64,000 nucleotides of DNA, taken from NCBI RefSeq assembly GCF_000196175.1, contig NC_005363.1, positions 310,001 through 374,000 on the forward strand, written 5' to 3'. The notes beneath the pieces were generated by a model that was not told the origin of the DNA, did no database searches, and worked only from the letters and a program-made list of their open reading frames with translations. This DNA is from Bdellovibrio bacteriovorus HD100 (GTDB lineage Bacteria > Bdellovibrionota > Bdellovibrionia > Bdellovibrionales > Bdellovibrionaceae). Position numbers and translations under genes: made by a program. The stretch's first letter is position 1. Each line of letters starts with the position of its first letter. Below are positions 8,296-59,265 of the stretch, one piece after another.

Positions 8296-9935
8296 CGGTG
8301 CGCGGTCTTTCCAAGTTGCTTTCGCATCTTCCACAGAAGATGGCTGATGTACGGTCGGCGTATTTCGCCAGTGGTTACCATCAAGAGTTTTGTGATCTTC
8401 AAATTCACCGCATCGGTGTACAGAAGGATCAGCATTTCATAAATGAAGTTCGTGTTCAATGTCACGTGGTTGTCGGTGCCAACGCCCAGTTGCACGCCTT
8501 TTTTCTCCCACCACGAAAACGGATGGTCCTTGTAGTCTTCAAACTTGCCAGTCAGCTTGTTGTTTGAGGATGGCAGGGACACCAGGGTCACACCTTTTTG
8601 AATCATACGATTCAGAACATCGTGCTGATAGTGTTCGACTTCGCGGGCGGTGTGGAACTTGGCTTTGACGAACAGAATGTCTTCTTCCGCAGTGATCTTG
8701 GTCCCTTTCAGGATTTTTTCCAGAACGTGGCGGTTGAAACCCCAGTCCAGTTCGGTCAGCTCGCGGTACAACGGATCTTTCTCAGAAATCGGCTGACCCT
8801 GTTGGTTCTTGGCCAGAATGTCCTGATAAATCCGGTGGAAGTATTTGTTCGGATTGATGCCCAGACTGATTCCGTGTTCCAGAGTGTCGATGTGCCAGAT
8901 GTTCATGGCATTGTCGACGGCCTGGATGCCCTTTTTCAGAGTGTGCCAGGTTTCGCCGTGATGCGAACGGATTTTGAAGCCACGGTACTGCAGCTTGCGG
9001 AAGCCCGCCTGCATTTCGTTGAAATGTTCTTTACGGTAAAGTTCGCGTTCATCGCCGACAGTATCGACATCGCGCAGGTGGCGCTCCAGGAACGGATACT
9101 TGTCGATCATGTCGACCAGCTCGTTGATTTGTTCCATGAAGTGTTCCTGGCGGGTTTTGAACTTTTCAGAATCAAAGTGGTTGGCTTCTTTTCTGAAAGA
9201 CGGCGACAGGATGAAGTCAAAGTTCGGGTGTTTTTCCTGGAAGGCACGGAAACCGTCATACAGGCCCAGCACCACGTCTTCGGATGTCACATTGTCGATA
9301 CCCGGAATTTGCTCTGACGAGCTGGCGGTGGAACGGGACAGCGAGAACTTCAAACGCACACGGCCGACGTTGAATTTGTAATACAATTCTTCAGCCATGG
9401 AATAGGCCGCTTCCTTGTGAACTTCGCGATTGATGAAGATCAATTTTGGAAGATAAAGAATTTTCAGATAGCGCGAGAAGCCTTCATTTTCCTGCAGGCG
9501 GATCAGACGGTCGACGTCTTCAACCGAACGAATGGGCAGGGCTTTGTCGCCATAGACCTCTTTGATTTTTTGTTCATAGATGTCTTTGTCCGGGCCTTCC
9601 AATAGTTTTTTCAGGCGTGGAAAAATGAACTCGGCGGTGATGGCGCCGGTCAGGTGAATGTGCTCTTCGTTGTATTTCAATGGAAAATTTTTGAAAAACT
9701 CAAACAGCGCCGCAGACATGGGGTGCTTCAGCAGGGACGAGATCGTCACCTGATTGATCTGAAAACGATTCAGCAGATCGCGGAACTCGACCACAAGGCC
9801 GTAGGCATCCAGATTCTCTGTTTTCATTTTCGAAGACAAAAGCAGATCAATGGTGTCAGAAAGCGAAATCCCGTTGGTTTCGCTGATGATGGTGGTCAGT
9901 GCTGAGGTCAGCTGATTGTGAACATCCTTATTCAC
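8292..9935 (-). CDS. Large adenosine/AMP deaminase family protein
   Basis: Metal-dependent purine deaminase family, 547 residues against 330-350 for typical adenosine deaminase. Family motifs are present: EEHIHLTGA (zinc His pair, about residues 92-94), SHHGETWH (catalytic HxGE region), IDTLEHG (zinc His), SLPSSNNKLTG, and VGTDNHVTLN at the final metal site, where usual enzymes have TDDP. The extra length is mainly an N-terminal ~90 residues and insertions before the HGE motif. GTG at 9935 is chosen because AGGAGG lies five bases upstream. It is translationally coupled to the AmpG-like gene. Deamination of adenosine or AMP is expected from the family; the exact substrate is uncertain. Confidence 0.85.
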   Translation of the reverse strand: MNKDVHNQLTSALTTIISETNGISLSDTIDLLLSSKMKTENLDAYGLVVEFRDLLNRFQINQVTISSLLKHPMSAALFEFFKNFPLKYNEEHIHLTGAITAEFIFPRLKKLLEGPDKDIYEQKIKEVYGDKALPIRSVEDVDRLIRLQENEGFSRYLKILYLPKLIFINREVHKEAAYSMAEELYYKFNVGRVRLKFSLSRSTASSSEQIPGIDNVTSEDVVLGLYDGFRAFQEKHPNFDFILSPSFRKEANHFDSEKFKTRQEHFMEQINELVDMIDKYPFLERHLRDVDTVGDERELYRKEHFNEMQAGFRKLQYRGFKIRSHHGETWHTLKKGIQAVDNAMNIWHIDTLEHGISLGINPNKYFHRIYQDILAKNQQGQPISEKDPLYRELTELDWGFNRHVLEKILKGTKITAEEDILFVKAKFHTAREVEHYQHDVLNRMIQKGVTLVSLPSSNNKLTGKFEDYKDHPFSWWEKKGVQLGVGTDNHVTLNTNFIYEMLILLYTDAVNLKITKLLMVTTGEIRRPYISHLLWKMRKQLGKTAHR

Positions 9936-9955
9936 CGATTCCTCCTGCAAAGAGG

Positions 9956-10411
9956 TTAACGGGGAATAAGATGCTTGTACATGGTTTTATGGGGACCGAT
10001 ATCCTTGATATCAAACAGCGGTCCATAGAATGAAAATCCAAGTCTTTCATAGAACGGAAAAGCTTTGATGCGCGCATTGAACCACACCAGGTCACAGCGA
10101 CGGCTTTTTAATTCTTCCACACCAAAGCGCACCAGTTTTTGTCCCAGGCCCTGACCGCGATAGCTGTCATCCGTGGCCATGCCACGCAGGCGATAAGGAT
10201 AGCCGGCTGAAAAAGCGGGATGTGATTCCTGGATGAAGGTCGCGACCGAAACAAGATTTCCGGAAATAAAAAGGCCGAAGTGGAACGTGGTCGGAAGATC
10301 GTCTCCCGGATTCACGCATTCTTCGGCGCGCAGGTGAGGCTTAAGAACTCTTTGGCGGATCGGCAGAGTGTCGGTGGTGGTGATGGTTTTAAATTCGTAC
10401 TCTGTCGTCAT
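9956..10411 (-). CDS. GNAT family N-acetyltransferase
   Basis: 151-residue acyltransferase with one GNAT fold. RGMATDDSYRGQGLGQKLV holds the acetyl-CoA motif (R-G-Q-G-L-G), and WFNARIKAFPFYERLGF is the usual C-terminal GNAT segment. The start MTTEYEF at 10411 overlaps the TGA of the HNH gene by four bases, which favours it over the longer in-frame reading. The substrate is unknown. The short gap to the next gene (20 bases) keeps it in the same operon. Confidence 0.87.
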   Translation of the reverse strand: MTTEYEFKTITTTDTLPIRQRVLKPHLRAEECVNPGDDLPTTFHFGLFISGNLVSVATFIQESHPAFSAGYPYRLRGMATDDSYRGQGLGQKLVRFGVEELKSRRCDLVWFNARIKAFPFYERLGFSFYGPLFDIKDIGPHKTMYKHLIPR

Positions 10412-10941
10412 CCGGTATTCAGTCTTAAATAGGGCGTCCAGTCGGGAGGCACGTGATCCTCGCCGATTTCCAGTTGCAGTGTTGGCAACCATGATGGAGC
10501 ACGGGGCTCACTCAGTAAAGGCATATTGGCGGTGCGGGGTGTTCGGTTTGCTTTTCTTTGATTGCAGTCCCGACAGGCGGAAACAACGTTGGTCCAGTTT
10601 TTAGGGCCGTTATGAGAGGCGGGGACGACGTGATCAAGAGTGAGGAGCTTGGCGGCGAGTTTGGTGCCACAGTACTGGCAGGTGTAATTATCGCGGATAT
10701 AAACGTTTTCCCGGCAGAATCGGACGGCTCCGGCGGTCCGGGGTCGTACATACGTCTTCAGCCGCAAGACACTGGGCAGCTGAAACCTTCGTTGTACCGA
10801 CCGGGCAAACGCAGAGTGATATTCCAATATCTCTACTTTTCCCTGAAACCACAATACCAAGGCCTTTTGCCAACCTACGATCTGCATCGGCTCGTAGCTA
10901 GAGTTGAGCAACAAAGACCTCAGCGAGGACATGTGCATCAT
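10408..10941 (-). CDS. HNH endonuclease family protein
   Basis: 177-residue protein with an HNH nuclease domain at residues ~80-135. A CxxC pair in YTCQYCGTKL, LDHVVPASHNGPKNWTNVV (the H and N of the motif) and a second pair in ACRDCNQRKANRTP form a zinc-stabilised beta-beta-alpha metal finger. The N-terminal part (LLNSSYEPMQIVGWQKALVL) is characteristic of free-standing chromosomal HNH proteins of unknown role. A GGGGGGAA ribosome site precedes the tandem ATGs. It leads a four-gene minus-strand operon; no restriction or phage genes are near. Confidence 0.88.
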   Translation of the reverse strand: MMHMSSLRSLLLNSSYEPMQIVGWQKALVLWFQGKVEILEYHSAFARSVQRRFQLPSVLRLKTYVRPRTAGAVRFCRENVYIRDNYTCQYCGTKLAAKLLTLDHVVPASHNGPKNWTNVVSACRDCNQRKANRTPRTANMPLLSEPRAPSWLPTLQLEIGEDHVPPDWTPYLRLNTG

Positions 10942-11101
10942 GCGTTCCCCCCTCAGGCGCGATCCTAAATATGATTATATCTAGCTCTGCGTCTCAATTT
11001 CAAGTGTCTCGTTAAATATTCAAAAGAACTGGGTCTTTTCGGTTGCCTGAATAGGTCCAAAATGGGATACCGTCGGCATTAAGCGCACAGGAGGCATATA
11101 A

Positions 11102-11575
11102 ATGAAAAGAGTCTTGGCATTTAACTACGTTTTAAAAGGACCTGACGGCAACGTATTGGACGCTTCTGAGCGCAACCAGCCGCTTCCATTCCTGGAAGGT
11201 GCGGGCCAGATCATTCCTAAACTTGAAGAAGAAATCAAAGACCTGCAAGAGGGCGATAAAAAAACTGTGAAGCTGGCAGCGAAAGACGCTTACGGCGAAG
11301 TGAAAGACAATATGTTCATGGACGTTCCTAAAGCGGAGCTTGCGCACCTTCCACAATTGGAAGTCGGTGCTCACCTGCGTTTGGAATTGGGTCAGGGTGC
11401 ACACATCGTGCGCGTGACTAAAATCACTGACGAAGCAGTTACTTTGGATGGCAACCACCCATTGGCAGGTCAGGATCTTGAATTTGCAATTGAGATGGTT
11501 TTGATTCGTGAGGCGACGGCGGAAGAAGTTCTGCATGGACACCCGCACGGCCTCCACGGCAACAGTGGCCACTAG
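11102..11575 (+). CDS. slyD: SlyD-type FKBP peptidyl-prolyl isomerase
   Basis: 157-residue folding helper. It isomerises Xaa-Pro bonds through the FKBP domain, which is interrupted by the SlyD 'insert-in-flap' chaperone domain (about residues 65-120). LEGAGQIIPKLEEEI and KKTVKLAAKDAYGE are FKBP/SlyD signatures. The C terminus has a short His-rich tail (HGHPHGLHG) that may bind nickel or other metals; it is much shorter than in Escherichia coli SlyD. AGGAGG stands ideally upstream of the ATG, and a possible promoter (TTGCCT-N17-GATACC) lies near 11042-11070. A 119-bp repeat follows the stop. Confidence 0.93.
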   Translation: MKRVLAFNYVLKGPDGNVLDASERNQPLPFLEGAGQIIPKLEEEIKDLQEGDKKTVKLAAKDAYGEVKDNMFMDVPKAELAHLPQLEVGAHLRLELGQGAHIVRVTKITDEAVTLDGNHPLAGQDLEFAIEMVLIREATAEEVLHGHPHGLHGNSGH

Positions 11576-11579
11576 TCGG

Positions 11580-11698
11580 CCGATGAAAAGGGCCCATCCG
11601 ACTGCGTTGTCGGGGGACCCTTTTCGCTTCGACGTGCTTGGAGCACGCCTCCGCTTCAAGGGGACCCCTCCGCCTTGCGGCTGAACCCTTTTGATCAG
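11580..11698. repeat. 119-bp dispersed structured element, copy A
   Basis: Aligns without gaps to 31662-31780 on the same strand with about 102 of 119 identities by hand count. It begins CCGATGAAAAGGG and ends CCCTTTTGATCAG, an imperfect 13-base inverted pair. An internal hairpin, GTGCT-TGG-AGCAC, is identical in both copies. It fills most of the gap between slyD and yajQ and contains no supported reading frame. Confidence 0.85.
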
Positions 11699-11774
11699 CC
11701 TCATTGTAGTTTGATGGATTGGCTGATCGGATTTTAACTTTGAATTTCTTTTGAATTTATTTGGGAGTTTTTCG

Positions 11775-12260
11775 ATGCCTTCGTTTGATATTGTTTCTGA
11801 GATTGATGTTCAGGAAGTGGACAACGCCGTAAATCAGGCGCGTAAAGAGATTGAAGCTCGTTACGATTTCAAAGGCAGTAAGGCTGAGCTTCAATGGGAT
11901 AAGAAAGAAATGGTCCTTCTGGCGGAGGATGATTACAAAATTGGGGCGATGGCCGGGATTCTGCAAACCAAATTGCATCGTCGTGGGATTGATATCAAAG
12001 CGATTAAATTCGAAAAAATTGAAGAAGCTGGTGGCAGAATGCTTCGCCAGAAGGTCACTTTGGTACAGGGAATTGACCGCGAGATCGCCAAGGATATCAT
12101 TAAATTGATTAAGGATTCCAAGCTGAAGGTGCAGCCGCAGGTTGCGGATGACAAACTGAAAGTGACGTCAAAAAGTATTGATGAGCTTCAGGAATGCATC
12201 AGTCTGGTGCGTGGTGGGAACTTCCCTCTTCCCTTACAATTTAATAATATGCGCGCTTAA
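11775..12260 (+). CDS. yajQ: YajQ family nucleotide-binding protein (UPF0234)
   Basis: 161-residue cytoplasmic protein with two ferredoxin-like (RRM-resembling) domains. MPSFDIVSEIDVQEVDNA at the start, ARYDFKGSKAELQW, the central IKAIKFEKIEEAGG and the C-terminal DELQECISLVR are strongly diagnostic. YajQ family members bind cyclic di-GMP in Xanthomonas and act as transcription co-regulators; that role is known for the family and only inferred here. The start at 11775 is supported by GGGAG eight bases upstream. The 119-bp repeat lies directly upstream. Confidence 0.95.
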   Translation: MPSFDIVSEIDVQEVDNAVNQARKEIEARYDFKGSKAELQWDKKEMVLLAEDDYKIGAMAGILQTKLHRRGIDIKAIKFEKIEEAGGRMLRQKVTLVQGIDREIAKDIIKLIKDSKLKVQPQVADDKLKVTSKSIDELQECISLVRGGNFPLPLQFNNMRA

Positions 12261-12262
12261 AA

Positions 12263-12291
12263 TTGGGCTTGCACGTTTTTTGGGCTATGCT
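12263..12291 (+). promoter_or_regulatory. Putative promoter of the RNA-binding protein gene
   Basis: TTGGGC (12263-12268), 17-base spacer, TATGCT (12286-12291). Transcription starting near 12298 would give an untranslated leader of about 90 bases, long enough for regulation of the kind common in cold-shock genes. Confidence 0.4.
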
Positions 12292-12389
12292 AGCGTTATT
12301 GGTAGTTAAAAGTCCCCGTGTGAGTGTACTCGATTTCATCTTGTTCGAAGGCTTCCTCGGGTATTATGGCCCAACCATAGGAGGTCTTT

Positions 12390-12752
12390 GTGGCTAAGAA
12401 ACTTTACGTAGGCAACTTGCCTTACTCTGTAGACGATGAGGCACTTCATCAACACTTCGCACAGTTCGGTGCGGTAGATTCAGCAAAAGTGATCATGGAT
12501 AGAGAAACCGGTCGCTCTAAAGGCTTCGGCTTTGTAGAGATGTCCGATGACTCTGCTGCTGATCAAGCTATCGAAAGAGGCAACGGTATTGAGTTGGGCG
12601 GTCGTCCTATCAATATCTCTGAGGCTCGTCCTCAGGCTCCTCGTGAAGGCGGCCCACGTCGTGGTGGTGGCGGCTTCGGTGGTGGTCGCGGCGGTGGCGG
12701 CGGCGAAAGACGTGGTGGCTTCGGCGGCGGTGGTCGCGGTGGTCCTCGCTAA
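12390..12752 (+). CDS. Glycine-rich RNA-binding protein with one RRM
   Basis: 120 residues. One RNA recognition motif fills residues 1-80, with RNP2 as LYVGNL and RNP1 as KGFGFVEM, the two strands that contact single-stranded RNA. The tail from residue 85 is a low-complexity Gly/Arg (RGG-like) segment. Bacterial proteins of this type resemble cold-induced Rbp proteins and probably act as RNA chaperones. GTG at 12390 is the start: AGGAGG lies five bases upstream. The leader is long and a strong terminator follows the gene. Confidence 0.94.
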   Translation: MAKKLYVGNLPYSVDDEALHQHFAQFGAVDSAKVIMDRETGRSKGFGFVEMSDDSAADQAIERGNGIELGGRPINISEARPQAPREGGPRRGGGGFGGGRGGGGGERRGGFGGGGRGGPR

Positions 12753-12800
12753 GCAGCCCATACTTTGACGAAGCTGGACTTGTCATTGTCTTAAAAACTA

Positions 12801-12834
12801 AGGTCTCATAGGAACCCTATGAGACCTTTTTTAT
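12801..12834 (+). terminator. Terminator that contains the start codon of the next gene
   Basis: A perfect 12-pair stem, AGGTCTCATAGG/CCTATGAGACCT (12801-12812 and 12816-12827), with a three-base loop is followed by TTTTTATTTT. The ATG of the tesA-like gene (12819-12821) lies within the right arm, and its AGGA ribosome site spans the left arm and the loop. Confidence 0.88.
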
Positions 12835-13418
12835 TTTCACTCATTCTTCTTTTTAGTTCTTTTTCGTTTGCCCAAAAAAAACTGATCGTTCTGGGTGATT
12901 CGCTCACCGAAGGATATGGCGTTGCCAAAGAGGCCGCGTTCCCCGCGGTCCTGGAAAAGAAACTTCACGAGGCCGGCAAGAAGGAATGGACCATCATCAA
13001 TGCCGGGGTCAGTGGTTCCACCACAGCGTCGGGGCTTAGCCGCATGAAGTGGGTGTTTAAATCAAAGCCTGATGTTGTGCTTTTGGCCTTGGGGGCCAAC
13101 GATGGTTTGCGCGGTTTGAAAGTCGAAGACAGCGAAAAACATCTGGCTCAGTCCATCGAATACGCACAATCCCAAAAAGTAAAAGTCATTCTGGGTGGTT
13201 TGTACATGCCACCGAACTACGGCAAGGACTACACCGACAAATTCAAAAAAATGTACGAGTCGCTGGCCAAGAAATACAAGCTGACCTTCATTCCATTCAT
13301 CCTGGACAAGGTGGCGGGAAATCCAAAATACAATCTGGCCGACGGGATTCATCCCAACGAAGAAGGTCATAAAATTATCGCAGACAATGTGTTTTCAGTT
13401 CTAAAGGGGGCGTTGTGA
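12819..13418 (+). CDS. tesA: TesA-like GDSL lysophospholipase/arylesterase
   Basis: 199-residue exported SGNH hydrolase. A short signal peptide (MRPFLFSLILLFSSFSFAQ) points to the periplasm. GDSLTEGYG holds the nucleophile Ser28, NAGVSGST the oxyanion Gly, LGANDGLRG the Asn, and DGIHPNEEGH the Asp-His pair. The family cleaves acyl esters such as lysophospholipids and acyl-CoA thioesters. It is coupled by a GTGA overlap to an ABC ATPase and then a large permease, the same tesA-ybbA-ybbP order as in enterobacteria. The start codon sits inside a terminator stem, so expression may depend on read-through. Confidence 0.92.
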   Translation: MRPFLFSLILLFSSFSFAQKKLIVLGDSLTEGYGVAKEAAFPAVLEKKLHEAGKKEWTIINAGVSGSTTASGLSRMKWVFKSKPDVVLLALGANDGLRGLKVEDSEKHLAQSIEYAQSQKVKVILGGLYMPPNYGKDYTDKFKKMYESLAKKYKLTFIPFILDKVAGNPKYNLADGIHPNEEGHKIIADNVFSVLKGAL

Positions 13419-14080
13419 GTTTGATCCTGAAAGATGTCAAAAAAGGTTTCCTGCAAGGGGAGTCCGAGATTCAGGTGCTGAAAGGCCTTAACGTCACCAT
13501 CCAGCCAGGACAGGTCGTTTCTGTCGTGGGCCAGTCCGGCAGTGGCAAGTCCACGTTGCTTTCAATTCTGGCCGGCCTTGAGCGCGCGGACAGCGGCGAG
13601 ATTCTGGTTGATAACATCAACCTGACCCCGATGAGCGAACAGCAAATGACTTTGTTCCGCGCCCAGAACATTGCGGTCGTCTTTCAGCAGTATCATCTGA
13701 TCGCGCATCTGACGGCGGTGGAAAACGTGATGCTGGCGCTGGAGATTCTGAAAATGGAAAATCCCAAAGCCCGCGCTGAAGAAGCCCTGACCGAGCTGGG
13801 GCTGGGGCATCGCCTGAATCACTTCCCCAGTCAGCTGAGCGGTGGGGAATGTCAGCGTGTCGCGATTGCACGTGCGCTGGTGGTAAAACCTAAAATTCTG
13901 CTGGCCGATGAACCAAGCGGGAACCTGGACATCCACACGGGCGACAAGGTCATGGATGTGTTCTTTGATGTGGTTCGCAAACACAAGATCACCACGTTGC
14001 TGGTGACTCACAGTGAAGCTCTGGCGAAAAAATGTGAACGTACTTTGCGCCTTGATGAAGGCCAGTTGAAGGAAGCGTAA
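13415..14080 (+). CDS. ABC transporter ATPase, YbbA/LolD-like
   Basis: 221-residue ATP-binding subunit. Walker A is GQSGSGKST, the Q loop is VFQQYHLIAHLTAVENV, the signature is LSGGECQRVAIARAL and Walker B is ILLADEPSGNLD, with the switch His in LVTHSEAL. It belongs to the MacB/LolD/YbbA branch, which powers mechanotransmission or lipid and lipoprotein handling rather than solute transport. It starts with GTG overlapping the tesA TGA and ends TAATG into its permease partner. Confidence 0.94.
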   Translation: MSLILKDVKKGFLQGESEIQVLKGLNVTIQPGQVVSVVGQSGSGKSTLLSILAGLERADSGEILVDNINLTPMSEQQMTLFRAQNIAVVFQQYHLIAHLTAVENVMLALEILKMENPKARAEEALTELGLGHRLNHFPSQLSGGECQRVAIARALVVKPKILLADEPSGNLDIHTGDKVMDVFFDVVRKHKITTLLVTHSEALAKKCERTLRLDEGQLKEA

Positions 14081-16629
14081 TGATTTTCCGACTTGCCTGC
14101 CGGGAGCTTCTGCGCAGCTGGCGCTTTGGGCTCTTTTTCATATTCAATTTAAGTCTTGGTCTGACGGGCTTTGTCTCGCTTCAGGCCTTCAATGTGGCCC
14201 TGGAAACAGAAATCAAAGCCAACGCCAAATCCATTCTTTCTGCGGATCTGGCCGTGGCTGCACGCCGCGAACTGACTGACGATGAAGCCAAGAAAATGCG
14301 GGAAGTGGTGCCGGCAGCTGCCACTGAAGGCAAGATCTATGAATTCTTTGCGATGTTAAGTTCGTCCAAGGGTTCAAGACTGGTTTTGGTCAAAGCCGTG
14401 GATCAGGCCTATCCGTTTTATGGGGAGCTGGATCTTGAATCCGGCCGCCAGATCACCGCGGGCAGTGATAATAAAGATATTCTCTCCGCACCCAAGGCGT
14501 GGATCTATCCTGAGCTGAAATCCCAGCTGGGACTTGATGTCGGCGATGAGATTCAGCTGGGCCAGTTGAATTTGCAAATTTCGGATGTGGTGAAAAAAGA
14601 CGCCACTCAGACCTTCCGCATGGCAAGCCTGGCGCCGAGAATCTTTGTGAACCGCGAGCTTTTGCCGCAGTCGGGTCTTTTGCAGTACGGAAGCACGTTC
14701 TCGCTGGCGCACTTGTTTAAGCTGCCAGAAACCACGGATCACAAGCTGGTGCGCGATCAGCTTTATAATGTTTTGACCGATCCACAGATCAATGTCGAAA
14801 CCCCTGAAACGGCGGGTGAAGATTCCGGGCGTCAGCTGGGTTATTTGTCAGACTATCTGGGCCTGGTTGCGATCGTGGCCCTGTTTATGTCAGCGCTGGG
14901 GGCGGCCTACATTTACCGTCTGTTCCTCTCCACGCGGATGAAAGAAATCGCTATCTTGCGCACCCTGGGTCTGCAAAGTGGCGAGGCGGTCAGCGTTTAC
15001 ATCCTGCAAGCCTCCATGCTGGGATTGCTAGCCACCATTCCGACCATGCTGTTTAGTTTGTTGGTGTTGCCTTTGCTCAGCAAACTGCTTGCGAACTTCA
15101 CTCCGTTTGATTTAAGTCCGACGGTGACGCCGGAAGCGTTCCTGATTTGTCTGTTGATGGCGGTGTTTGGCAGCTTTGTGGTCAGCATCCCGTTCCTGAT
15201 GAAGATCTTTGATCTGCGTGCGGCGAAGCTGTTCAGTGAAGAAAAGTTTGCGGTGGGTGAAGGGCAGCGTCGTTATTGGACGTTCCTGCCTTGTGTGGCT
15301 TTGTTCTATTTCCTTTCGGTGTATCAGGCACATTCCTGGAAGATCGGCAGTTTGTTTGTCGGTTCGATGGTGGCTGTGGTGCTGGCGCTGCTTTTGATCG
15401 GCTATGGCACTGTCAAAATGGCCGGCTGGATTCGGGGCTTGAACCGCTGGTTCCTGAAGTTCAGCTTCTTAAGCCTTTCCCGCCGGGCGGGGGCGAGTCT
15501 TGCGATCTTTGTGGCATTGGGCTTGGGGGCTTTGCTGATCAATATCCTGCCACAGCTGAAGAACTCGCTGCAGGCGGAATTCCAGCTGGATGCCAACAGC
15601 AAGATCCCGTCACTGTTTATGTTCGATATTCAGGATGAACAATGGACGGGTCTTGAAAAGATTCTGGCGGATCGTGAAGTGAAACCATTGGGCAGATCTC
15701 CGCTGGTGCGCGCGCGTATCCTGAAAGTGAACGATCAGGATTATGAAAGAAAGCTCGACACCCAGGGATTTAAAACCCGTGAAGAAGAACGTGAAGCCCG
15801 CTTCCGCAACCGCGGGATGAATCTGTCCTTCCGTGAAGGTCTTTCTGATTCCGAAATCATGATTGATGGCCGGCCGTTCTCAGGTCCTTTTGATCCGGAA
15901 AAACAAAAGCGAGCCGAGCTGTCGGTGGAAACCCGCTTTGCCGACCGCATGGGCTTTAAGATCGGTGATGTGCTGGTCTTTGACGTTCAGGGTGTGGAAG
16001 TGGAAGGCGAAATCATCAACCTGCGCAAGGTGAAGTGGACAAGCTTCCAGCCGAATTTCTTTATTATGGTGCAAAACGGTGTTTTGAACGAAGCCCCGAA
16101 AAGCTGGATCGCGGCGATTCCGTTCCTGCCAGAACAGCAAAGATCTGAACTGCAAAATGCCATCGCCAAAGAATTTTCCAACGTGTCCGTTATTGATGTT
16201 GTGCGCACGGTGGATGATGTCCTGAAGACCGCCGAAAAAATGAGCTGGTCCCTGGAACTCATGGCGGGTCTGGCGCTATTGACCGGATACATCGTATTGT
16301 TCTCGATTGTGCGCAGTCAGATCAAGCTGCGCCGTTGGGAGCTGAACATGCTAAAAATCCTCGGCGCCAGCTGGGGAGAGGTCGCAAGCTTCATTCTGAC
16401 CGAATTTGCATTTCTTGCATTTATTGCCTCGTTCTTTGGGGCGGCTTTGAGTGTGGTGGTGAGTTTTGCTCTGAATACATTCATCTTTGAAAGCGACTTT
16501 AAGTTGTCATTGATTCAGCCGCTTTTGTCGGTGGTGATTATCACGACTTTAAGTCTGGTGATTTCATTCCTGGCCAGTCTGGATATCGTGCGTGAAAGCG
16601 CCCTGAGCATCCTGCGGGAAGAAAAATAG
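14080..16629 (+). CDS. YbbP-like FtsX-family ABC permease
   Basis: 849-residue inner-membrane protein that partners the upstream ATPase. One N-terminal membrane helix is followed by a large periplasmic domain, then FtsX-type helices (LGLVAIVALFMSALGAAYIYRLF, with the coupling segment LSTRMKEIAILRTLGLQS). A middle block of helices and a second periplasmic domain follow, then the C-terminal FtsX set near residues 720-849 (IKLRRWELNMLKILGASWGEV). The size and duplicated layout match YbbP. The complex probably extracts or moves an envelope lipid or lipoprotein with the TesA-like esterase; the substrate is not known. Confidence 0.92.
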   Translation: MIFRLACRELLRSWRFGLFFIFNLSLGLTGFVSLQAFNVALETEIKANAKSILSADLAVAARRELTDDEAKKMREVVPAAATEGKIYEFFAMLSSSKGSRLVLVKAVDQAYPFYGELDLESGRQITAGSDNKDILSAPKAWIYPELKSQLGLDVGDEIQLGQLNLQISDVVKKDATQTFRMASLAPRIFVNRELLPQSGLLQYGSTFSLAHLFKLPETTDHKLVRDQLYNVLTDPQINVETPETAGEDSGRQLGYLSDYLGLVAIVALFMSALGAAYIYRLFLSTRMKEIAILRTLGLQSGEAVSVYILQASMLGLLATIPTMLFSLLVLPLLSKLLANFTPFDLSPTVTPEAFLICLLMAVFGSFVVSIPFLMKIFDLRAAKLFSEEKFAVGEGQRRYWTFLPCVALFYFLSVYQAHSWKIGSLFVGSMVAVVLALLLIGYGTVKMAGWIRGLNRWFLKFSFLSLSRRAGASLAIFVALGLGALLINILPQLKNSLQAEFQLDANSKIPSLFMFDIQDEQWTGLEKILADREVKPLGRSPLVRARILKVNDQDYERKLDTQGFKTREEEREARFRNRGMNLSFREGLSDSEIMIDGRPFSGPFDPEKQKRAELSVETRFADRMGFKIGDVLVFDVQGVEVEGEIINLRKVKWTSFQPNFFIMVQNGVLNEAPKSWIAAIPFLPEQQRSELQNAIAKEFSNVSVIDVVRTVDDVLKTAEKMSWSLELMAGLALLTGYIVLFSIVRSQIKLRRWELNMLKILGASWGEVASFILTEFAFLAFIASFFGAALSVVVSFALNTFIFESDFKLSLIQPLLSVVIITTLSLVISFLASLDIVRESALSILREEK

Positions 16630-16652
16630 ACGGGAAACCTTTCAATCCCGTC
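16629..16652 (+). terminator. Weak terminator-like hairpin after the permease gene
   Basis: GACGGGA/TCCCGTC begins on the last base of the TAG stop. The following TGCTTTG is only weakly T-rich, so this may instead be an mRNA 3' end stabiliser. Confidence 0.35.
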
Positions 16653-16675
16653 TGCTTTGATGTACAAAAGTATCC

Positions 16676-17692
16676 ATGATGTCGCCAAACGAGGCCTTGG
16701 CCAAAGCCAAAATCATACTTGAAGAAGGGGGAGTCATCGGCTTCCCCACCGAGACCGTTTACGGTCTGGCGGCCCGTATTGATATCCCTTCGGCCATCGA
16801 AAAGATTTTTACCACCAAAGAGCGTCCGTTCTTTGATCCCTTGATTGTGCATGTGGCGTCCATTGAACAGGCCAAGAAGGTCACGGCCTTCTGGGGACCG
16901 GCTTCTCAGGCGCTGGCGGAAGCTTTCTGGCCGGGTCCGCTGACCATGGTGCTGCCACGGGATCCTTCCGTAAATGCGATGATCACGTCGGGTCTTGAAT
17001 CCGTGGGCATTCGCATGCCAAATCACCCGCTGGCTTTGGAACTGTTGCAGCAGGTGGGTGTGCCTTTGGCGGCGCCAAGTGCCAACAAGTTCGGTCGCAC
17101 CTCCCCGACGTCCGCGTCCCATGTGCGGGTGGAATTTAAAAATGAAAACGTTTTCGTGGTTGATGGTGGCGATTGTGAAATCGGCATCGAATCCACGGTC
17201 TTGCTGGTTCGTCACCGTCCTGAAGGTGTGATGCTGTCGATTCTTCGCCGCGGGCATATTCTGAAATCAGATCTTGCGCGTGTGCTGGAAGAAAAGGGCC
17301 TGGCTTATGAATTCATCGAGCAGGTGGATAAGCGCGAATCCCCAGGCCATATGAAACATCACTATATGCCGCCAGTTCCGCTGGTGGTGTGTCTGGATCC
17401 GTCCCGCAGCCCGGAAAGTGTGCTGAAAGAAGTGAATGAAAAGATCGGCGAACTGCCGGATGAAATTGAAAGCATCAAGATCATCAAACCTAAAGCGGGC
17501 ATTCATTCCTACGAGGTTTTAAAACTTTCCGAAGACCCGTTGCTGGCAACACGTGAATTCTATGGTCACTTGCGTGACGTGGCTGCGCGCGGGAAAGATT
17601 GCATTCTGTTTTACCGTGAAGCCCACCAAACCGGTGAGCGCTGGGAATCCCTGTTTGACCGCCTGAATAAAGCGGCCTCTCTTATTGTCTGA
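16676..17692 (+). CDS. L-threonylcarbamoyladenylate synthase, long Sua5 type
   Basis: 338 residues. It makes threonylcarbamoyl-AMP from threonine, bicarbonate and ATP for the t6A37 modification of ANN-decoding tRNAs. The YrdC domain covers the first ~200 residues: GGVIGFPTETVYGLAAR, KERPFFDPLIVHV, FWPGPLTMVLPR, GIRMPNHPLA and APSANKFGRTSPT. The C-terminal ~120 residues form the Sua5 domain, which sets it apart from short TsaC; the linker SPGMKHHYMPP-like segment (SPGHMKHHYMPPVPL) is conserved. Tandem ATGs at 16676 and 16679 leave the exact start open by one codon. Its 3' end overlaps a convergent gene by 11 bases. Confidence 0.93.
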   Translation: MMSPNEALAKAKIILEEGGVIGFPTETVYGLAARIDIPSAIEKIFTTKERPFFDPLIVHVASIEQAKKVTAFWGPASQALAEAFWPGPLTMVLPRDPSVNAMITSGLESVGIRMPNHPLALELLQQVGVPLAAPSANKFGRTSPTSASHVRVEFKNENVFVVDGGDCEIGIESTVLLVRHRPEGVMLSILRRGHILKSDLARVLEEKGLAYEFIEQVDKRESPGHMKHHYMPPVPLVVCLDPSRSPESVLKEVNEKIGELPDEIESIKIIKPKAGIHSYEVLKLSEDPLLATREFYGHLRDVAARGKDCILFYREAHQTGERWESLFDRLNKAASLIV

Positions 17693-18566
17693 GTTTTCTT
17701 TGCAAACGGAAAGTCAAAGCCGGAACCATGGAGGTGATTATCGCCATGGCAACAAGGCTTGTGAACAAAGTCATGTCAATCAGTCCGGCCTTCAGGCCGA
17801 AGGTGGCCATCAGAATCTCCATGGCGCCGCGGGCGTTCAGTGACAGACCAATAGTCATGCTGTCGGTGTGATTGAACTTGCGCCAGCGGGAAACCGCGTA
17901 AGACCCGACGATCTTTCCAGCGAAGGCAATCAAAGTCACAATCGCCACCTGACGGGCATCAAAGTGCTGGGCCAGATTCAGACCCCAGCCGATGGTGACA
18001 AAGAAAATGGGTGCAAACACCCAGCGGGTGAAGCTTTCAAGTTGTTCAATGCGTTTTTCTGAAATCAAGTTCCAGTCTGAAATGAAAAGTCCCGCCATAA
18101 ACACAAACACCGGCAGATGCGAGGCAATCCACGGCCCCATGCTTTGGGGTGGCAGCAGGAATGAAAACATGATCCACGCCAGAATATCACATAAGGTGGC
18201 AGCACTGACGATCAGGCGGCCCAGATTGGTTGTGTAAAGATTGGCTTCTTTTAAAAGCTGAATGATCACCGGCAGGGCTGATACGGCCATGGCGGTGGCC
18301 ACGAACAAGGTGTTGCTGCCTTCCGGAAGCAGGTACAAGGCACCAGCATATCCCGTAATCAATGGGAATATGAAAGCGCCCACGCTGATCCACGAGGCTT
18401 CTTTCAGATGAGCCAGTGTCTTTTTAAGACTCAGCTCCAGGCCGGCGGCAAACAGAAAGACATAGGCTGCGATCGTGCCCAGCAGGGACACGGTTTCAGT
18501 TTTGGGAATATTTAGCAGGGTGGGGCTGAGGATCAGACCCGCAGCGATAAATAGAAACAATTTCAT
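17682..18566 (-). CDS. Cation:proton antiporter (CPA2-like), short form
   Basis: 294-residue membrane protein with about nine or ten helices. FLFAAGLELSLKKTL and LSLNARGAMEILMATFGLKAGLI match the monovalent cation/proton antiporter-2 family, which exchanges Na+ or K+ for H+. Typical members have 380 or more residues; here there is no KTN/TrkA regulatory domain and the helix bundle is also short. The ATG at 18566 overlaps the upstream TGA by four bases, so the longer in-frame reading to 18740 is rejected. It may form a unit with the small membrane protein encoded upstream. Confidence 0.82.
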   Translation of the reverse strand: MKLFLFIAAGLILSPTLLNIPKTETVSLLGTIAAYVFLFAAGLELSLKKTLAHLKEASWISVGAFIFPLITGYAGALYLLPEGSNTLFVATAMAVSALPVIIQLLKEANLYTTNLGRLIVSAATLCDILAWIMFSFLLPPQSMGPWIASHLPVFVFMAGLFISDWNLISEKRIEQLESFTRWVFAPIFFVTIGWGLNLAQHFDARQVAIVTLIAFAGKIVGSYAVSRWRKFNHTDSMTIGLSLNARGAMEILMATFGLKAGLIDMTLFTSLVAMAIITSMVPALTFRLQRKLRQ

Positions 18567-19081
18567 TTGCGGGATTTTCTCCACGCGAAAAAGCCCAGTG
18601 TTCCAAACGAGGTCAGGATAGCAAGGACCAGCATTACTGTGTTGCTGGTGGAGGGATCTGCAGAACCGGTGATTCCGAAATAATAGACGGCAGTTTTCAG
18701 GATGATCATCGATTGGATCATCACCCAGATATACGGCCACAGCTCACGCGCGGTTTTTTGATCTTCAGTCAGCTCTTTTACGGGCTTTTGTGCCTGAACC
18801 GGATAGTTCCAGTTGTTGTGACGGTGATAGTCCACCAGGATGGCATTCCAGCCCGAACGCAGATCTTCAAAGCTGACAGGTTTATCGCAAGTCTTCAGAT
18901 GTTGCGCCAAACGTTCCGCCGCATCCTTGGTCAGAAGCTCTTCAGTTTCAAGGGAGTAGTAACCCGCGCGATCTGGAGAAAGGTCCTGTGGCAGGTTTTG
19001 AATGATTTCCTTCAGGTAGCTTTCAGCTTCCTGATTCAGCGGGATATCGGAAAGTGGTTTGCGAAAAACGGCTGTTTCCAT
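18563..19081 (-). CDS. Unknown protein with two C-terminal membrane helices
   Basis: 172 residues. The first ~110 are soluble, acidic and helical; the C terminus has two predicted membrane helices (ELWPYIWVMIQSMIILKTAVY and VMLVLAILTSFGTLGFFAW) and a basic end, RKSRK. AGAAGGG upstream of the ATG at 19081 decides the start. I do not recognise the family. The ATGA coupling to the antiporter suggests an accessory or regulatory subunit of that transporter, which is an inference from position. Confidence 0.78.
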   Translation of the reverse strand: METAVFRKPLSDIPLNQEAESYLKEIIQNLPQDLSPDRAGYYSLETEELLTKDAAERLAQHLKTCDKPVSFEDLRSGWNAILVDYHRHNNWNYPVQAQKPVKELTEDQKTARELWPYIWVMIQSMIILKTAVYYFGITGSADPSTSNTVMLVLAILTSFGTLGFFAWRKSRK

Positions 19082-58507: not shown

Positions 58508-59265
58508 GTCAGAGGCGTGGCGACACTGTTTAAGAACTTTTCCAGGGTCGGGGCATATTCGGATTTAAAATCACGAAGCCCGGTCAGGTGACCGGCCTCT
58601 GGCAGTGAAAGTTTGGTCCAATCCAGATTCGGGTGCGGTTCAAACACCTGATCGATGTGATCCGGCGGAATCAACAAGTCCTTCCAGCCCCGAATGGATA
58701 GAATCTTAAAGCCCTGCGGGAAGGTTTTTAAGTCCTTGTCCAGATCCTTGTGCAGGAACGGGCTCCAGGCCAGGCTCAGCACCGGGGTCAAAGCCAGACG
58801 CAATGGCAACGGGCGGATCTTGTATTCGTGCGTGTAAAGGTTGTAAGCCGACGGAATAAATTTACCGGAAGGGCCGCTGTCACAAACCAGTGCCACTGTG
58901 TCGCTGCAATTGCGACGGGCCATGGCTTCAATGGCCGAAGCCGTGGGGTTTGAAAACGAGAAGATGATTTTTTTGCCCGGCACTTGATTCAGCAGGGTTT
59001 CGATCTGATCAGCATAGATATGTTTAAGTCCGAATCCGCCTTTGGAGCTGATCGGAAGTTTAAGTGATGTCAGATCTTTGTGGGTGCCGGACAGATTGAA
59101 GGCAAAGGCATCAAAGCCCATTTCATTGACGAGCTTGATGTGACGAAGCAGCTGTTTTTTGCTGCCTTCAAAGAAGTGGACGAAAAAGACGACTTCTTCA
59201 AATCTTTTGCTGCGGGAATAAAAGAACTCCCCATCGAAGGGGAGTTCTTGTTGTTTGTTCTTCAT
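58504..59265 (-). CDS. Alpha/beta-hydrolase-like protein with a degenerate nucleophile elbow
   Basis: 253 residues with hydrolase-fold order: VVFFVHFFEGSKKQLLRHI (oxyanion region), a possible elbow in IIFSFSNPTASAIEA where GxSxG is not conserved, VCDSGPSGKF, and EAGHLTGLRD with the C-terminal His. The missing elbow glycines make activity doubtful. The first 15 codons form a terminator-like hairpin in the mRNA. It is coupled to the methyltransferase gene downstream. Confidence 0.68.
   Translation of the reverse strand: MKNKQQELPFDGEFFYSRSKRFEEVVFFVHFFEGSKKQLLRHIKLVNEMGFDAFAFNLSGTHKDLTSLKLPISSKGGFGLKHIYADQIETLLNQVPGKKIIFSFSNPTASAIEAMARRNCSDTVALVCDSGPSGKFIPSAYNLYTHEYKIRPLPLRLALTPVLSLAWSPFLHKDLDKDLKTFPQGFKILSIRGWKDLLIPPDHIDQVFEPHPNLDWTKLSLPEAGHLTGLRDFKSEYAPTLEKFLNSVATPLT
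59217..59249 (-). terminator. Terminator-like hairpin inside the first codons of the hydrolase gene
   Basis: On the minus strand, an 11-pair perfect stem (AAGAACTCCCC/GGGGAGTTCTT) with a six-base loop runs into TTTATT. It lies 16-49 bases after the ATG at 59265 and about 100 bases downstream of the stop of the preceding dehydrogenase gene. Confidence 0.6.

Follow-up and report, generated by a model that had tools for sequence, protein, structure and literature searches.

Within the 64,000-nucleotide stretch of DNA analyzed here, referred to as the window (positions 310001 to 374000 of the single 3,782,950-bp chromosome of Bdellovibrio bacteriovorus HD100; genome G000, contig C1), a gene for an RRM-domain glycine-rich RNA-binding protein precedes a gene for a tesA-like secreted GDSL esterase. 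The first (12390..12752, plus strand; Pfam RRM_1, E = 1.9e-23) begins with GTG behind the Shine-Dalgarno (SD) sequence AGGAGG. It is followed by tesA (12819..13418, plus strand; Lipase_GDSL_2, E = 2.8e-29). Downstream in the same operon and on the same strand (13415..16629) lie genes for a ybbA-like ABC ATPase (13415-14080) and a ybbP-like permease (14080-16629), which match Pfam ABC_tran, FtsX and MacB_PCD. The name tesA-ybbA-ybbP, given to these genes in an earlier note made from the sequence alone, is apt, since Pfam identifies a GDSL esterase, an ABC ATPase and an FtsX/MacB-like permease. The ATG at 12819-12821 is very likely the true tesA start, as the encoded MRPFLFSLILLFSSFSFA looks like a signal peptide and no other in-frame ATG occurs until 225 nt downstream.

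The RRM gene ends in a hairpin, at 12800-12828, that contains this ATG. Its left arm, AAGGTCTCATAGG (12800-12812, plus strand), is joined by an AAC loop (12813-12815) to the right arm, CCTATGAGACCTT (12816-12828, plus strand), in which the tesA start codon and codons 2 and 3 lie. The T tract, TTTTATTTTC (12829-12837, plus strand), follows directly 3' of the right arm and together with the end of that arm encodes Phe-Leu-Phe of the TesA signal peptide. The perfect 12-pair stem and T run reported in the earlier note are both present, and one outer A-T pair extends the stem to 13 pairs. The stem begins 47 nt past the RRM stop codon. An SD-like AGGA is found at 12810-12813, with three of its bases paired in the stem.

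Folded alone, the stem reached -20 kcal/mol (z = -4.07), and none of 200 shuffled sequences was as stable. The junction thus has the stable stem and the directly following U tract that characterize intrinsic terminators. It was by far the best among 13 terminator-like sites found by a terminator scan of positions 9000-19000. The scan as a whole gave no surplus of sites over shuffled sequence (13 versus 13.1), so the length of the junction stem is the unusual feature. In a predicted fold of a 200-nt read-through RNA, the tesA ATG was unpaired with a probability of about 0.001. The stem would hide the start of tesA in such an mRNA, as previously proposed, and this fold makes it likely that read-through RNA is silenced.

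The overlap in related genomes

We compared the junction among relatives, 87 of 99 of which carry tesA. The loci of 85 of these 87 genomes were examined; G051 and G054, with partial matches, were left out. The start codon was taken as the most upstream ATG located 12 to 60 codons ahead of the GDS motif; in the promoter-spacing and SD counts, L028 was entered with its second ATG. In 45 of the 85 loci, tesA immediately follows the RRM gene, whose stop codon precedes the tesA start. In 29 of these 45, representing 9 of 12 genera, a stem with a T tract spans the tesA start, so that the overlap seen in the window is kept in relatives. Among the 36 loci with no RRM gene upstream, two have a hairpin over the start, both of them weak (L064 and L102). 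These counts exclude L060 (no start found), L108 (no tesA match), L010 (the RRM gene is cut by the contig end, and a hairpin over the ATG is present) and L065 (the called start is inside the RRM gene). L045, with a weak 9-bp script match over the ATG, was counted as separate because it has a strong terminator upstream. The script gave no call for L029, L031 and L058, which were entered as non-overlapping; the separate stems of L029 and L031 were seen by eye.

Strong hairpins over the start are therefore confined to loci in which tesA comes directly after the RRM gene, a pattern that identifies the hairpin as the RRM terminator, repeatedly set on the tesA start. We consider it highly probable that the junction stem is the terminator of the RRM gene. 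The same distribution speaks against the earlier suggestion that the stem is a control element belonging to tesA.

At least seven unrelated stem sequences were found among the overlapping loci: AGGTCTCATAG in Bdellovibrio, with related forms in genera g13 and g19, AAGATCCTAAG in g3, AATAGCAGCCT in g15, AAGAGACTGGTTTTC in g12, AACGGCCGGTGCT in g7, AATAGAGTTTCA in g10 and GCAGTTTTTAAAA in g6. The place of the ATG in the hairpin varies by genus and may be the right arm, the loop edge or the loop, which in one case is 28 nt long. On the TesA tree, where L010 was taken as overlapping, the overlap was gained or lost about eight times, and at least five of these changes are forced by starred branches. 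In g3, the stem persists through paired changes that alter the protein from MLRI to MFKI (L037 and L051). A clade of five species (L012, L014, L016, L019 and L023) has a separate RRM terminator upstream, with the gene order unchanged.

The codons within the hairpin are strikingly uniform. Of 19 Bdellovibrio loci with the overlap, 18 have AGA as codon 2, and all 19 have CCT and TTT as codons 3 and 4. In the same loci, the 113 tesA columns with conserved amino acids have a mean codon heterozygosity of 0.505, and only 5 of them have a value of zero. The remainder of the signal peptide differs between Bdellovibrio loci in both sequence and length. The near absence of synonymous change at codons 2 to 4 against this average points to a constraint at the nucleotide level, and these codons appear to be held as nucleic acid, as a terminator would require.

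The ribosome-binding site does not share this conservation. An SD-like motif 5 to 16 nt before tesA was present in only 6 of 25 loci of Bdellovibrio and g13, compared with all 24 RRM starts and 24 of 25 ybbA starts in the same group. Four of the six, namely the species of the window and three close relatives, have AGGA, and the other two are L020 and L022 with SD-like motifs; the remaining 19 loci have no SD before the tesA start, although the window's own species does. SD-based initiation was accordingly rejected as a conserved feature of tesA. Of the proposal that the stem contains both the ATG and part of the ribosome site, the first half is borne out in relatives and the second is peculiar to a few loci.

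A candidate promoter within the hairpin

We identified a candidate -10 hexamer, TCTCAT (12804..12809, plus strand), in the left arm of the stem, and a candidate -35 hexamer, TTGTCA (12780..12785, plus strand), upstream of it. Read on the opposite strand, TCTCAT is exactly ATGAGA, the start codon plus the Arg codon that follows. As a match to TATAAT it is weak and has C where -10 boxes almost always carry A; its assignment draws on sequence and spacing. The prediction of the -35 draws on the conserved CTTG (its C at 12779), which is separated from TCTNAT by 17 to 18 nt in 24 of the 25 loci of Bdellovibrio and g13, the exception being L018 with CTTTC. From TCTNAT to the tesA ATG there are 7 to 9 nt in these loci and 9 nt in the window's species. 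This arrangement predicts a transcription start at the ATG or a few nucleotides before it, and hence an RNA that lacks the left arm. RNAs beginning at 12811-12819 are predicted to have weak structure (-1.4 to -3.0 kcal/mol in the first 60 nt); if the RNA begins exactly with the ATG, the T and G of that codon remain weakly paired (unpaired with probabilities of about 0.3 and 0.1; -1.4 kcal/mol).

Both motifs persist in the five species with a separate terminator, where identity is 100% for CTTG, 93% for TCTNAT and 66% for the spacer. Between these five loci and five overlapping ones, the values are 100%, 83% and 39%, respectively. Outside the genus, 11 of 28 genera have a -10-like hexamer 7 to 9 nt 5' of the tesA ATG; in 68 control windows the mean was 3.2 and the maximum 7, and a count of 11 was reached in 2 of 2,000 base shuffles. 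No clear -35 boxes were seen near tesA outside the genus, no canonical -10 is conserved across the genus in the 65-nt intergenic region, and TTG-N17-TCTNAT was not enriched in a 464-kb genome sample. On balance, a tesA promoter inside the hairpin is an almost even prospect.

Some neighboring elements were also noted. A second small conserved hairpin, TTTGACgAAG...CTTGTCA (window positions 12766-12786), is located just 5' of the terminator in most Bdellovibrio loci and overlaps the candidate -35. In the clade of L012, CTGATA resembles by eye the -10 of the sigma-28 (FliA) promoter. That promoter is given as TTAAG-N16-CCGATA in the excerpts consulted of a study that mapped 140 promoters in attack phase only, excerpts in which the word leaderless does not appear (PMC3627812). 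No TTAAG is present at the right distance from CTGATA, and a sigma-28 promoter was rejected. In g6 (L055, L058 and L059), inspection by eye revealed TTGCTA-N17-TAGAAT in the 25-nt loop of the RRM terminator, and in L055 and L059 tesA starts shortly past the T tract. As a putative promoter within a terminator, it is clearer than that of Bdellovibrio itself.

Leaderless mRNAs look common in this genome, as predicted from a 464-kb sample made up of the window and L074-L093. Of 114 genes without an SD, 13 have a -10-like box 6 nt before the ATG and 5 have one 7 nt before it, over a background of 1.9 per position. The 9-nt gap at the window's tesA is wider than this peak, which counts against the candidate -10. 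The 217 genes with an SD showed no excess (1 and 0, versus 4.3). A G occurs two bases before the hexamer in 11 of the 18 aligned boxes. At L078:17117-17167, a terminator ends 8 nt before TATACT, which is itself 7 nt before the ATG of a GTPase gene that we take to be typA-like. This site is a candidate for another junction of a terminator and a leaderless promoter.

Terminators in the first codons of other genes

In 864 kb (23% of genome G000), 10 of 117 strong terminators fall at the called start of a gene, several of these 10 being doubtful open reading frames. Applied to 450 kb of Escherichia coli MG1655, the same script placed 2 of 42 terminators at gene starts, both of them weak; with numbers this small, we claim no excess over E. 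coli. Besides that of tesA, three such terminators in the 864 kb are conserved in the genus, and in all three genes the ATG precedes the stem.

The first encodes a 416-amino-acid lipoprotein (L075:17497-18747; compared in loci L109 to L131) and has the terminator AAAGACTCACG..CGTGGGTCTTTTTTT in its signal-peptide codons. The stem begins 16 nt after the ATG, and the stop codon of the upstream open reading frame is 3 nt before it. The stem is clear in 21 of 23 loci (one was not printed and one was unclear). L124, L125 and L128 show paired changes, and the stem of L130 has an entirely different sequence. The gene is a candidate for termination controlled by translational re-initiation. The second encodes a 322-amino-acid lipoprotein (L074:17312-18280, minus strand; loci L133 to L155), PPIase-like by our reading of its sequence, whose signal-peptide codons (MKFSKSPALTGLFIF) include, near their beginning, the terminator GAGCCCCG..CGGGGCTTTTT. 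This gene has a normal SD, and its stem is kept in 21 of 23 loci of the genus, the other two not being printed. The third, in the window itself (59222-59249, minus strand), encodes a 253-amino-acid protein with the terminator-like stem GAACTCCCC..GGGGAGTTC in its first codons (ELPFDGEFF). The whole stem was present in 13 of 24 printed stretches, with three cut off, and other species have the peptide but no stem.

In these three genes, a ribosome translating the first codons could keep the terminator open. The model for this is the pil1 attenuator of Streptococcus gallolyticus, at which, in the available sections of the report, a terminator near a translated leader is opened by the ribosome (PMC3894217). 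According to the same sections, the pil1 leader peptide is phase variable and the terminator is ahead of the operon, whereas in Bdellovibrio the stem is in the first codons of the gene itself.

A proposed boundary between two transcripts

We propose that the junction is a boundary element in which the RRM terminator is superimposed on the promoter and start region of tesA. RRM transcripts would stop in the T tract, and any RNA that reads through would carry a sealed tesA start codon. A tesA promoter with its -10 in the left arm would start transcription at or just before the ATG. The resulting leaderless or near-leaderless mRNA, being without the left arm, could not form the hairpin and would be elongated and translated. 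We assign this reading a probability of about one half. A promoter in the stem that gives a leaderless mRNA, an outcome the earlier note had named as contrary to its own proposal, is the best supported reading of the junction, though not a proven one. The overlap probably ensures that the protein is made only from RNA begun at tesA's own promoter. A more tentative extension, to which we lean less, is that a single palindrome serves as terminator, promoter and start codon: the left arm would supply the -10, the right arm the start, and the U tract the code for the hydrophobic core of the signal peptide. Polymerase arriving from upstream would transcribe the entire hairpin and be stopped, or its RNA silenced; polymerase starting inside would transcribe just half of it and pass. 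The same space would be used in other ways at other Bdellovibrio genes for secreted proteins.

The overlap might instead be passive. The hairpin would then be only the RRM terminator, its T tract tolerable as signal-peptide code (TTT, TTA and ATT for Phe, Leu and Ile), and tesA would be weakly translated from read-through RNA or from an unseen promoter farther upstream. That the terminator follows the RRM gene across loci, that the hairpin's position relative to the ATG differs among genera, that the overlap has come or gone so often on the tree, and that the -10 of the genus is poor all fit such an account. However, it leaves unexplained why the overlap recurs in 9 of the 12 RRM-adjacent genera with unrelated stems when so few terminators of the 864 kb lie at gene starts, and why CTTG and TCTNAT remain constant at loci where a terminator places no constraint on them. 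With the ATG so rarely unpaired, read-through RNA would also be left nearly silent. We regard a passive overlap as somewhat unlikely.

The earlier note had envisaged a switch, in which the stem jointly controls termination and translation of the envelope operon and is relieved by the RRM protein. Both functions do reside in one stem, and the RRM gene is adjacent in the strong overlapping cases. Yet relief through RRM found no support in the sequences: within the 400 nt upstream, nothing complementary to the left arm exceeds 5 nt, a length that shuffles also reach (average 5.5), which argues against relief by a competing structure, and the best Rfam match at the junction (E = 0.15) is below the gathering score. 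A known riboswitch or attenuator was rejected on these two grounds. Moreover, the SD is not conserved, the loops are variable, and the L012 clade parts the terminator from the start while keeping the gene order, all of which make a switch improbable. Finally, the palindrome could be a DNA operator at which a dimeric regulator controls tesA, as the separate-terminator clade keeps AGTTCTC-TAT-GAGAACT over the ATG (positions -7 to -1 identical in 5 of 5), but this sequence arises by one codon change from a stem of the L026 type in a shallow clade, and in other loci the stem has a T tract and its sequence is completely replaced, so that an operator is very improbable.

If the boundary reading is true, the junction is a compact way to tell two transcripts apart by their origin on the same strand of the same DNA, with only RNA begun inside the hairpin being elongated and translated. 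Selection on RNA shape would also set the first amino acids of a secreted protein. Terminators and leaderless starts of predatory bacteria can be mis-annotated when such overlap is assumed to be absent. Our search of the open-licence literature found no description of an overlap between a terminator and a start in Bdellovibrio.

The frd-ampC junction of E. coli, reportedly described by Grundstrom and Jaurin in 1982, has its hairpin in the ampC leader, so that ampC RNA passes through it. It is the closest known system: a terminator belonging to the upstream operon overlaps regulatory DNA of the next gene, and the promoter of that gene is located within the upstream operon (PMC13228080). The Bdellovibrio hairpin differs in that it holds the start codon and that the proposed transcription start is beyond the left arm. 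In dual-acting riboswitch and attenuator platforms, a single hairpin both terminates transcription and masks the ribosome site or gene start. At tesA, in contrast, no ligand, leader peptide or antiterminator was found, and the hairpin ends a separate upstream gene. Leaderless mRNAs are known from mycobacteria, among others. In Zymomonas, the sections consulted of one study describe transcripts that start at or a few nucleotides from the start codon and have no SD (PMC7566282), as proposed here for tesA. Unlike in these known leaderless mRNAs, the tesA -10 would be folded into the terminator of another gene.
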